Origin: Fibrobacteraceae bacterium
Lineage (GTDB): Bacteria > Fibrobacterota > Fibrobacteria > Fibrobacterales > Fibrobacteraceae
DNA: 64,000 nt
Reading direction: 5' to 3'
NCBI GenBank assembly: GCA_017625775.1
Contig: JAGAKE010000002.1
Coordinates: forward strand, 124,001 to 188,000
The notes under the pieces are model-generated. The model saw only the letters and a list, made by a program, of their open reading frames with translations, had not been told where the DNA came from and did not search any database. Shown piece by piece: positions 40,611 through 43,588 of this stretch. The translations under genes were made by a program, and so were the position numbers. Numbering within the stretch: position 1 is the stretch's first letter; each line of letters begins with the position of its first letter.

Positions 40611-41078
40611 ATGTTGAAGTATTTTGGGCTTTTGTCAATTTTAGTTTTTTCTTTTCAGAATGTTTTTGCTGAAAAACAAGATACTATTTGGAATAGGGCT
40701 TTGCTTACATGGTATGAATCTTATCCAGCCGCAGAAAGTGAAGAATGTATAATGTATAATGGTTGTCATTGGGAAGGGCTTTTTGCGGGTGTTTCTGGTA
40801 AGCAAACAGAAGAATGGGTAAAAAATCATAATATTATCGCTGTTCACGAAAAAGATTATGAAAAATATGCGTTAAAAACATTTCGCATAAAAAAGAACGG
40901 CGTAAGTATTGATGCTACTGTTTATGATATGTGCTCGGATTCAGATTGTAATGGTTGTTGCACAAAGAATGCAGGGAAAGTTGGTTTTTTGATTGATATG
41001 GAAAAATATACTATGGAACGGTTTGGGGGACAAAGTAGCGGTTTGGTTCAATGGATTTGTTTAGATTGTGATGAATAA
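40611..41078 (+). CDS. Small secreted protein, expansin/barwin-like (tentative)
   Basis: A 155-aa protein with a signal peptide (cleavage after FQNVFA). The mature part has about ten cysteines and a late block ATVYDMCSDSDCNGCCTKN followed by GFLIDMEKYTMERFGG and QWICLDCD. A strand with a buried Asp-x-Cys, a CC pair and then 'D....f..f' is the layout of the six-stranded double-psi barrel of expansins and barwins, which loosen cellulose. No second (CBM63) domain is present. The match is by pattern only. Sitting directly behind the fibro-slime gene and its terminator, it could help that adhesin's work on fibre; a bare cysteine-rich secreted protein is the fallback. Confidence 0.55.
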   Translation: MLKYFGLLSILVFSFQNVFAEKQDTIWNRALLTWYESYPAAESEECIMYNGCHWEGLFAGVSGKQTEEWVKNHNIIAVHEKDYEKYALKTFRIKKNGVSIDATVYDMCSDSDCNGCCTKNAGKVGFLIDMEKYTMERFGGQSSGLVQWICLDCDE

Positions 41079-41084
41079 AAAAGG

Positions 41085-41112
41085 AGCGGCTGCAATGGTG
41101 CATGCAGCCGCT
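41085..41112 (+). terminator. Hairpin after the expansin-like gene
   Basis: A perfect 10-bp stem (AGCGGCTGCA / TGCAGCCGCT) with an 8-nt loop. The T run starts only after a few bases, so termination may be partial. Confidence 0.6.
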
Positions 41113-41156
41113 AGGTGTTTTTGGGTGGGTATGTATGTGTTCTTTGTTCCCTAAAA

Positions 41157-41186
41157 TTAAACAAAAAATTATTGAGTGAGTATAAT
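41157..41186 (+). promoter_or_regulatory. Promoter of the TIGR02147-type regulator
   Basis: A -10 box TATAAT (41181-41186) with -35 TTAAAC (41157-41162, four of six consensus) across an 18-nt spacer. Start of transcription near 41193 would leave an 85-nt leader carrying two direct repeats. Confidence 0.55.
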
Positions 41187-41205
41187 ATTTTTGAAAAATA
41201 ATTAG

Positions 41206-41252
41206 AAAGTGTTCTCAAAACGTTCTTTTTTAATGAAAAAGTGTTCACAAAA
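41206..41252 (+). repeat. Two 15-bp direct repeats before the TIGR02147-type gene
   Basis: AAAGTGTTCTCAAAA (41206-41220) and AAAGTGTTCACAAAA (41238-41252) differ at one base and start 32 bp apart, three turns of DNA. They lie just downstream of the promoter, where a bound dimer or tetramer could block elongation or initiation. They are candidates for an autoregulatory operator. Confidence 0.6.
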
Positions 41253-41279
41253 TTCAAAAGAAAAATTATCTTATAGACG

Positions 41280-42113
41280 ATGAACGTTTTTGCTTATTAT
41301 AACTATCGTAAGTACCTGCAAGATTATTACGAATACCGTAAATCAATGCAGCGTTATTTTTCATATAGAACTTTTGCTAAAAAAGCTGGTTATACCTCTT
41401 CTGGATTTTATTTAGATGTAGTTAAAGGACGCAAGGCTTTAACCCCTCAAATGGTACCAAAGTTTATCACAGCTCTTGGACTTTCTGAAAAAGAAGGACG
41501 TTATTTCTCCTTAATGGTTGATTTTACGCATGCTGATAATCCAGAATCCAAACAAAAAATTTTTGATGAGATGTCGGCACTTTTGCCATGTTCTGTTCGC
41601 AAATTAAACAAGCAACAACAGGAATATTATAGTAAGTGGTATTATGTCGTTGCACGAGAAACATTGGCTATTTTAAATATTAATGAAAAGAACATTGCTG
41701 ATTTGGCCTTGTTTTTAAATCCTAGAATTTCTTTACCACAAGCAAAACAAGCAATAAAACTTTTATCAGAGTTGAAAATTATTGAAAAAGACGAAAATGG
41801 ATATTTCCGTCCTGCTCAGCAAACTATAGCAAGTGGGCGTGAAATTACTCCTCTTTTTGTTCATGGTTTTCAAAAGCAAATGATTGACATGTCAAAAGAT
41901 GCTCTTGATAATTACAGTACTGAACGTCGAAATATTTCTTGTACTACAATGAGTGTTTCTGCTGAAGGCTTGCAGAGAATTATTCATAAAATTGATCTTT
42001 TCCGTAAAGAAATCGTAGATATAGTTCGCTCTGATGAAGGGGAATCTATGGTTTGTGAATTAAATATTCAGTTTTTTCCCTTAACAAAGGAAAAAGAAGG
42101 GGTAGAAAAATGA
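41280..42113 (+). CDS. TIGR02147-family protein, putative DNA-binding regulator
   Basis: A 277-aa cytoplasmic protein of the lineage-specific TIGR02147 family, which is amplified in Fibrobacter. The N-terminal signature is plain: VFAYYNYRKYLQDYYEYRK, then SYRTFAKKAGYTSSGFY, GLSEKEGRYFSLMV and a central KWYYVVARE block. Residues about 28-75 look like a Cro/XRE-type helix-turn-helix; the C-terminal half fits DUF4423. No enzymatic motif. The stop overlaps the lipoprotein start by 4 nt (ATGA), so the pair is co-translated. Paired direct repeats sit between the promoter and the ATG. Function is unknown; a transcription factor tied to an envelope lipoprotein is inference. Confidence 0.88.
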   Translation: MNVFAYYNYRKYLQDYYEYRKSMQRYFSYRTFAKKAGYTSSGFYLDVVKGRKALTPQMVPKFITALGLSEKEGRYFSLMVDFTHADNPESKQKIFDEMSALLPCSVRKLNKQQQEYYSKWYYVVARETLAILNINEKNIADLALFLNPRISLPQAKQAIKLLSELKIIEKDENGYFRPAQQTIASGREITPLFVHGFQKQMIDMSKDALDNYSTERRNISCTTMSVSAEGLQRIIHKIDLFRKEIVDIVRSDEGESMVCELNIQFFPLTKEKEGVEK

Positions 42114-43441
42114 GGTTTTTGCTTCTTATTTCTGCGATTTTAATTTATTCTAGTTGTTCTAGTGAAAGCAGAGTTGCTGGAACTGCTACTGATACAGAAA
42201 ATACCTTGGCTGGAGTAGTTCTAACTTCAGATCAAAGTGTTGCTGCCGGTGCTTCAGTACATATACTTTCTCGTAAAGTTGGCTATGGAGAAAGTTCGGT
42301 ATTGTTTGAAACTAAGGCAGATAGTGCTGGTCGGTTTGCTTTTGAAGAAATGCCCAAGGATTCTTTTGATTTGGAAATTCATCTACTAGATGATTCTGGT
42401 GAAATGTTAGAAGTAGGAGTTATTCGTGATTTGTCAATTCAAGACACTTCATTCTTGAAAGTATCTCTAAAAAAGCCAGGCGTTCTTGTCGGTCATTTCA
42501 ATTATGAAGAAAATATTCCTGAAATAACAATTGGTTCTGCCTTCCGTTTTTCTGTTGAGCGCTCTGGAATTCAAGCTCATATTTTCGCTGGCGACTCTTT
42601 TATGATTCCAATTATTCTTGGAAATATCAATTTTGCATTTTATCCTTCAGATGACCAAGTTGTATTACGTTTACAATCGGATGGCTTTGGAGATTCTTTA
42701 GTTTATCAGGAATTTTCAGTTTTTGTAGAATCTGGAGATACTCTTGATTTAGGTGATGTTAAATGGGTGATTGAAGAAAAAACAGAAAGCCCTTGGAAAA
42801 AGAATAGTTATTTGGCTGGTTACGTACGTGACTCTGTAGGTAATCCAATTTCTGGTGCTGTCGTGCGATTGATTAGTGATATTTACGGCCTTTCTTTTGC
42901 ATTATCAGGGAAATCTTCAGTAGCTGACTTTGTTTATACCGATAAAGATGGCTTTTGGATTATGCCATTTCCAGCAAAGATGGAAAGGGATAGTATTCGT
43001 ATAGAAACAGAATTAAACAATGGTCATATTGCAGAATCTTCATTTATTTCAGCATCTGATTTGAAGGAAAATGAAGGTGATACATTATGGGTTGAAAATC
43101 TTGAGCCTCGTGAACCTTCATCCATAAATTTGAATGTTCGATTGGTTGTAAATTTAGAAGATACTACACAAGTAGATAATTGCTATATGAATAGTGTTGT
43201 GGTCGGATTAGTAGGAACATCAAAATTTAAGCGGATTGTTACGTGTGCTCCGATGGATTTACCGGGTTTGCCTTCTGGAGTACATTCCTTTGTGTTCTAT
43301 ACGTCTGATATGACTGTTTTGAACGTTTTGCAAGAAAGAGGGGAACCAATGGATTCATACATGCGTTTTATGGATGTTAATTTAACGCCTGGTGCGGTTC
43401 TTGACCGTCAATGGATAACTTATACTCCGCCTACTTTATAA
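42110..43441 (+). CDS. Lipoprotein with carboxypeptidase-regulatory-like domains, TIGR02147 partner
   Basis: A 443-aa lipoprotein: short hydrophobic leader and lipobox IYSSCSS (Cys16). Two carboxypeptidase-regulatory-like beta-sandwiches can be seen, LAGVVLTSDQSVAAGASVHI with SAGRFAFEEMP (about 33-105) and LAGYVRDSVGNPISGAVVRL with DKDGFWIMPFP (about 240-310). The rest is beta-rich without an active site. Its ATG overlaps the TIGR02147 stop, making a two-gene operon followed by a hairpin terminator. It may be exposed on the cell surface or the periplasmic face and report on the envelope or bound polysaccharide to the regulator, but no membrane-spanning link is visible. Confidence 0.8.
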   Translation: MRFLLLISAILIYSSCSSESRVAGTATDTENTLAGVVLTSDQSVAAGASVHILSRKVGYGESSVLFETKADSAGRFAFEEMPKDSFDLEIHLLDDSGEMLEVGVIRDLSIQDTSFLKVSLKKPGVLVGHFNYEENIPEITIGSAFRFSVERSGIQAHIFAGDSFMIPIILGNINFAFYPSDDQVVLRLQSDGFGDSLVYQEFSVFVESGDTLDLGDVKWVIEEKTESPWKKNSYLAGYVRDSVGNPISGAVVRLISDIYGLSFALSGKSSVADFVYTDKDGFWIMPFPAKMERDSIRIETELNNGHIAESSFISASDLKENEGDTLWVENLEPREPSSINLNVRLVVNLEDTTQVDNCYMNSVVVGLVGTSKFKRIVTCAPMDLPGLPSGVHSFVFYTSDMTVLNVLQERGEPMDSYMRFMDVNLTPGAVLDRQWITYTPPTL

Positions 43442-43517: not shown

Positions 43518-43588
43518 TGAGCTATGGTGTAATGGTAGCACAACAGATTCTGACTCTGTTTGTTTTGGTTCGAATCCAGATAGCTCAA
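43518..43588 (+). tRNA. tRNA-Gln (anticodon CUG)
   Basis: A 71-nt cloverleaf. Acceptor TGAGCTA pairs perfectly with TAGCTCA, the D-loop is GTAATGGTAGC-like, the anticodon loop is TTCTGAC (anticodon CTG) on a five-pair ACAGA/TCTGT stem, and the T-loop is TTCGAAT. No CCA is encoded; it must be added. Confidence 0.93.

Follow-up and report, generated by a model that had tools for sequence, protein, structure and literature searches.

A TIGR02147 gene and the lipoprotein gene behind it, in a 64,000-nucleotide stretch of a Fibrobacteraceae genome (referred to here as the window), probably form a self-controlled two-gene cassette, in which a regulator with two predicted HTH domains would act on helically phased operators and the overlapping second gene encodes a tagged lipoprotein (Table 1). 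The recognition helix of the regulator predicts the box upstream of its gene, and the claim that the TIGR02147 protein is a DNA-binding autoregulator is therefore well supported at the level of sequence. A preliminary description of the locus had already proposed such an autoregulator within a regulator/lipoprotein module amplified in this lineage; the recurrent partner, the recurrent operator, and the relation between helix and box speak for that interpretation, but its placement of the promoter is probably incorrect, and the response of the regulator to the lipoprotein or its cargo that it also proposed is conjectural.

TABLE 1 Features of the cassette, with positions given in the window
Feature	Position	Strand	Characteristics
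Site 1, TGTTCCCTAAAAT	41145..41157	+	Operator core repeated upstream, as GTGTTCCCTAAAAATAGACA in relatives; precedes the tandem by 56-57 or 64-67 bp and is found in nearly all orthologs
TATAAT of the preliminary description	41181..41186	+	Consensus scan, TAAACA 17 bp upstream; not conserved
Site 2, AAAGTGTTCTCAAAA	41206..41220	+	Tandem, first half; kept in every ortholog examined
Site 3, CGTTCTTTTTT	41221..41231	+	Second half of the tandem; 11-bp step from site 2
Site 4, AAAGTGTTCACAAAA	41238..41252	+	Promoter-proximal, overlaps the -35 (TTCACA); in nearly all close orthologs the TTC precedes the ATG by 31-39 nt
Conserved -10, TATCTT	41267..41272	+	7 nt before the ATG, 17 bp from the site 4 TTCACA
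TIGR02147/DUF4423 regulator gene	41280..42113	+	277 aa; NCBIfam 345 bits, Pfam DUF4423, model pLDDT 89
Partner lipoprotein gene	42110..43441	+	443 aa; signal peptide II and tag, followed by a beta-sandwich pair in two repeats; ATGA overlap, lipobox, CarboxypepD_reg, model pLDDT 86
Tag, VAGTATDTENTLAG	42173..42214	+	Mature residues 7-20; conserved in the ortholog family, enriched in partners

The regulator is a full-length member of TIGR02147 (Fsuc_second) and Pfam DUF4423, scoring 345 bits against a cut-off of 50, with residues 1 to 270 aligned to positions 2 to 271 of the 272-position profile. As the preliminary description had stated, the family has no function assigned to it (this holds for both NCBIfam and Pfam) and is multi-copy in this lineage: it is present in 114 of 121 genomes of the phylum, a protein search found up to ~60 copies per Fibrobacterota genome, and the source genome of the window holds 5, counted in a partial genome of 1.98 Mb that is 71% complete. 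Orthologs of the regulator were found in named relatives, that is, in Fibrobacter and Fibrobacteraceae genomes, with identities among these orthologs of 69 to 84% for the regulator and 26 to 62% for the lipoprotein.

The previously noted ATGA shared by the two genes is present at 42110 to 42113, and since the genes overlap, they are presumably carried on one transcript and subject to coupled translation. A third conserved gene of the cassette was not found; the upstream neighbours vary between genera, and the conserved unit consists of two genes. Upstream on the same strand lie a gene for a Fibro-slime domain protein (TIGR02148; 37919 to 40561), which is not kept beside the ortholog elsewhere, and, between it and the cassette, a gene for a cysteine-rich protein of 155 amino acids with a signal peptide and no family match (40611 to 41078). 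A GC-rich perfect 10-bp inverted repeat with a T-rich tail on both strands (41085 to 41112) is likely to be a bidirectional terminator isolating the cassette. Directly 3' of the cassette is a tRNA-Gln(CTG) gene (43518 to 43588), after which comes an RNA methyltransferase-like gene, with synteny at 14 of 20 ortholog loci; as candidate members of the cassette, the tRNA and methyltransferase genes were rejected, the association being one of synteny only.

The structural model of the regulator contains a Cro/CI-type HTH at residues ~29 to 84 (helices 29 to 36, 42 to 48, 59 to 66, and 70 to 84), a winged HTH at residues ~104 to 178, and two long C-terminal helices. Profile searches of the PDB with the regulator returned C.BclI, HigA, and CI at residues 23 to 72 (weak E values, the best being 0.02) and a winged-HTH protein at residues 137 to 180 (again with a weak E value), and a fold search of the PDB gave no full-length match. 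DUF4423 is present in all 86 aligned TIGR02147 members, and the HTH assignment in a Pfam scan is weak in most of them; clearer matches to HTH_3 and HigA-type proteins were obtained with a TIGR02147 homologue (121.6 bits) encoded on a Bdellovibrio plasmid. Taken with the model and the weak PDB profile matches, this one homologue points to a predicted N-terminal HTH of the Cro/CI type, which is weak by Pfam. Family and domain profiles placed neither a sigma-70 family domain nor a membrane-spanning anti-sigma factor in either gene of the cassette; the preliminary description had seen no membrane link, and we likewise saw none, nor any membrane-spanning transducer in the cassette.

The lipoprotein neighbour recurs across Fibrobacterota, in line with what had been proposed. 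The survey covered 100 distinct TIGR02147 genes from ~30 Fibrobacterota genomes (~30 orthologs and 70 paralogs down to ~22% identity), and 93 of the 99 genes with room downstream are followed immediately 3' by a gene for an exported protein, nearly always a lipoprotein. Ninety of the 99 partners were scored as lipoproteins by an automatic rule, and three further exported partners were recognized by eye (L030, L122, and L097), the one at L097 being membrane anchored with no lipobox. The genes overlap in 79 of the 90 automatically scored pairs, and the pairing with a lipoprotein is seen even in deeply diverged paralogs and in different families of the phylum. No exported partner was found at 6 of the 99 loci (L054, L090, L099, L147, L153, and L156). 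An orphan group among the regulators without a lipoprotein (L147, L153, L099, and L090) has a palindromic box upstream (GTTGTTTCTAGACAAC or similar), and a near-invariant C-terminal proline is lost in three of its four members. Loss of this proline (P267) was rejected as a mark of partnerless regulators, since it is seen in only three of five of these and three partnered members also lack P267.

Beyond their N termini the partner lipoproteins diverge, and their downstream domains vary; in 61 scanned partners we found CarboxypepD_reg in 34, Laminin_G_3 in 10, FISUMP in 8, CBM_4_9 in 4, and pectate lyase in 2. The local lipoprotein has the lipobox YSSC at residues 13 to 16 (Cys at 42155), and the lipobox Cys is also present in the orthologs. 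The two carboxypeptidase-regulatory-like domains ascribed to it earlier were recovered both as PF13620 CarboxypepD_reg in two stretches and, in the model, as two repeats of a beta-sandwich pair, and in a fold search this model (pLDDT 86) resembles stacked pilin/CnaB-type domains.

The preliminary description had also noted two 15-bp repeats, 32 bp apart from start to start, and these were found as AAAGTGTTC(T/A)CAAAA at 41206 to 41220 and 41238 to 41252 (sites 2 and 4). The window holds no further copy at ≤1 mismatch, and at 2 mismatches there are 5 matches in total compared to 1.64 expected, a number reached in 0 of 100 shuffles. Features beyond that description are site 3, the upstream site (at 41145), and the conserved TATCTT at 41267 to 41272, and the copies of the GTTC core number four. 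The 11-bp step of the tandem formed by sites 2 and 3 is invariant in 20 of the 20 loci first aligned and is kept at L054 and L055, loci of two distant genomes with regulators of only 43% identity. The distance from the tandem to site 4 differs by lineage, in classes of 31/32, 60 to 65 (mostly 63/64), 73/74, 84/85, and 94 bp that fall near 3, 6, 7, 8, and 9 helical turns, respectively. In a scan of periods from 9 to 12.5 bp, the best period was 10.5 to 10.6 bp (R = 0.90 for all loci and 0.75 for distinct values), and a Monte Carlo test of phasing on the five spacing-class means gave a p value of 3.5e-4.

A strict tandem pattern was found in 18 of 18 genomes with an ortholog and in 0 of 6 without one (p ~7e-6). 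It matches about once per genome, always at the regulator gene where an ortholog exists, and the reversed control pattern gave 1 match in 61 genomes; an ortholog at 60% identity (in genome G007) has a variant core that the strict pattern misses. About one strict tandem per genome, at the ortholog, fits local autoregulation and not a regulon, and a motif-based scan, which could miss diverged sites, gave no evidence of a regulon under the GTGTTC box. The earlier proposal would have been refuted had the lipoprotein neighbour or the repeat failed to recur at other TIGR02147 loci; the neighbour recurs at 93 of 99 loci and the repeat at the ortholog in all 18 genomes. GTGTTC is limited to one orthologous group and its distant kin, and other TIGR02147 paralogs have different boxes, which follow the recognition helix. 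Generic repeat enrichment upstream of all paralogs was rejected, as the direct repeats with z>3 at 26 of 97 genes, compared to 6 of 100 controls, are largely those of orthologs; inverted repeats upstream of TIGR02147 genes were not enriched (11 of 97, compared to 13 of 100 controls).

A test of the recognition helix took the place of this generic enrichment test: 86 TIGR02147 members were grouped by the recognition helix of the N-terminal HTH and then compared with respect to the upstream box. TGTTCCC accompanies 18 of 25 SSG helices and 0 of 61 other members, TTTGTAT accompanies SPxFLK helices (13 of 14, compared to 6 of 72), and AGACAAC accompanies KDFI helices (5 of 5, compared to 0 of 81), with best raw p values of 3e-13 to 3e-8 that overstate the evidence, because members of a helix class share ancestry. 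The SPxFLK class, however, covers many paralogs and more than one genus. Judged from sequence, this relation between helix and box is the best evidence that the N-terminal HTH would read its own promoter. Paralogs of genome G002 (L084, L087, L095, L103, L130, L132, L134, L138, and L091) have a common SPxFLK helix and mostly the TTTGTAT box, and cross-regulation among these cassettes is therefore possible.

The repeats had been placed just downstream of a TATAAT promoter. This hexamer is present, but among six loci of the same architecture only one sister genome keeps a likeness to it (CATAAT), and since it is not conserved, it is unlikely to be the main promoter. The repeats lie instead at and upstream of a conserved promoter, with the last repeat overlapping its -35 and its -10 placed 7 to 8 nt 5' of the ATG. 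In most orthologs, the -10 takes the forms TATCTT, TAGATT, TATATT, or TATAAT at 7 to 11 nt before the ATG, and a 17-bp spacer separates it from the site 4 TTCCCA in 27 of 43 loci. Shine-Dalgarno-like sequences occur in 2 of 44 orthologs and 9 of 70 paralogs, compared to 171 of 334 long ORFs of the complete relative G017, a rough comparison since the control starts were taken as the farthest upstream ATG. The simplest reading would be a near-leaderless mRNA with site 4 lying over the -35.

The regulator would bind the tandem (sites 2 and 3) and site 4 over the -35, cooperatively and on one face of the DNA, and its binding would set the level of its own operon, most likely through negative autoregulation, which a signal would relieve or switch. 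The overlap of site 4 with the -35 makes repression somewhat likelier than activation. A positive autoregulator, which would recruit RNA polymerase from phased positions as a class I-like upstream activator and so replace a poor -35 (TTCCCA), is a tenable but less probable alternative: this -35 matches the consensus at only four of six positions and is itself operator, and the upstream sites are displaced by whole turns, which is what one expects of activators, but occlusion would explain a site over the -35 no less well. The lipoprotein would travel to the outer membrane and act at the surface as a beta-sandwich binder or adhesin. Paralogous cassettes would be separate copies that differ in their surface domains, and the multiplied TIGR02147 family then has the look of dozens of distinct surface modules, each under its own control.

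Behind the lipid cysteine, the partner lipoproteins have a common motif, AGGxxxExxN, which takes the form GTATDTENTVAG in orthologs and forms such as AGGSSEETNTIAG, GIEIGNP, and GSETGNPTKG in the other partners. A loose regular expression for this tag gave many false matches, and a stricter one was adopted, which matches 52 of 90 partners and misses true variants. In 800 kb of G017, the strict tag was found in 6 of 7 partner lipoproteins compared to 1 of 82 other lipoproteins (Fisher p ~8e-8, a kind of value that overstates independence where loci are related by descent); as the strict form misses many genuine variants, this comparison tests specificity and not coverage. Six of the 21 invariant columns of the lipoprotein ortholog family fall in mature residues 9 to 20, and AlphaFold gives residues 1 to 13, which are disordered in the model, a pLDDT of <50. 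Such strong conservation in a disordered tether suggests that the tag may be a linear recognition motif, and our guess is that it could link the lipoprotein with its regulator or with a common step of export or assembly.

The tag might alternatively serve as a lipoprotein sorting signal only, unrelated to the regulator, as does the signal for lipoprotein export in Bacteroidota, which is a short motif immediately after the lipid cysteine (PMC5080379). The tag likewise sits directly behind the cysteine, is predicted to be disordered, and precedes unrelated domains, but it is almost confined to TIGR02147 partners in the complete genome, where other lipoproteins are without it, and it differs from the Bacteroidota signal in its sequence and in being tied to one gene family and not to surface lipoproteins generally; we regard sorting alone as possible, though on balance doubtful. 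A far broader reading, in which the cassettes make up a phylum-wide system for surface sensing or surface diversification, with each dual-HTH regulator reading its lipoprotein via the tag, no membrane-spanning transducer, and an operator code and surface domain particular to each copy, seems to us unlikely; the regulator might in that case, for example, bind the unexported lipoprotein precursor during coupled translation.

Sensing of a peptide pheromone, in which the HTH regulator would detect a piece released from the signal peptide of the lipoprotein, as in PrgX/TraA, is very improbable. An HTH regulator does adjoin a lipoprotein here, and the fold search with the regulator lists a PrgX structure at low rank, but that match is insignificant (probability 0.08), the signal peptides of orthologs are not conserved though the regulator is ~75% identical, and the TPR peptide-binding domain that is a trait of RRNPP receptors was not found in the regulator, whose C terminus consists of the winged HTH and the helical tail. 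A toxin-antitoxin-like pair with a HigA-type autorepressor would account for an HTH resembling those of HigA antitoxins, for overlapping genes, and for an operator at the promoter, but is scarcely credible with a partner that is an exported lipoprotein whose surface beta domains differ between paralogs. That the repeats and the neighbour reflect chance in an AT-rich genome, or inheritance of one old locus by related paralogs, can be dismissed almost entirely, as the helical phase is kept despite changes in the spacer, the operator tracks the presence of the ortholog, and the lipoprotein association extends to deeply diverged paralogs and to different families of the phylum.

Among known systems, the Cro/CI-type (XRE) one-component autoregulators (C.BclI-type controllers and HigA) likewise have an N-terminal HTH, operator repeats at their own promoter, and a short overlapping operon; in contrast to these, the regulator described here has a second domain of a DNA-binding type, the winged helix, and a helical tail, and its partner is an exported lipoprotein. 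In Bacteroidota, ECF sigma/anti-sigma and Sus-type systems occur as many paralogous modules, each with a regulator and a surface protein. The TIGR02147 cassettes resemble them in their many paralogous modules and in partner domains that include carbohydrate-binding types, but the cassette yielded neither a membrane-spanning transducer nor a sigma factor or SusC/D. The DUF4423 regulator of the Bdellovibrio plasmid pBdHAGR1 (AP029177, L231:3486-5038) is joined by an ATGA overlap to an exported, nonlipidated protein that differs from the partner here in having an ordinary signal peptide and in lacking both lipobox and tag, suggesting that the coupling of the regulator to an exported partner may predate the tag.

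To what has been described for TIGR02147/DUF4423, this study adds the operators, the tagged partner, and the reading of the protein as HTH plus winged HTH. A literature search found no paper naming TIGR02147 or describing the module, which is weak evidence of novelty because most subscription papers lay outside the search; DUF4423 was found once, for a protein of Bdellovibrio that increases while the bacterium grows in its prey (PMC12546842). In the F. succinogenes genome paper, from which the term TIGR02147 is absent, regulators are scarce near cellulase genes and cellulase regulation is an unanswered question (PMC3079729). Envelope proteomics of F. succinogenes found four carboxypeptidase regulatory-like lipoproteins, which were lower on cellulose than on glucose (PMC6851124).

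The analysis offers a testable function for a family that fills the genomes of Fibrobacterota (114 of the 121 examined). A set of dozens of regulators, each paired with a box of its own and with a surface lipoprotein bearing domains of a lectin or carbohydrate-binding type, would plausibly make up a missing level of surface regulation in these fibre-degrading bacteria, and the relation between recognition helix and box would make the network predictable and directly testable.
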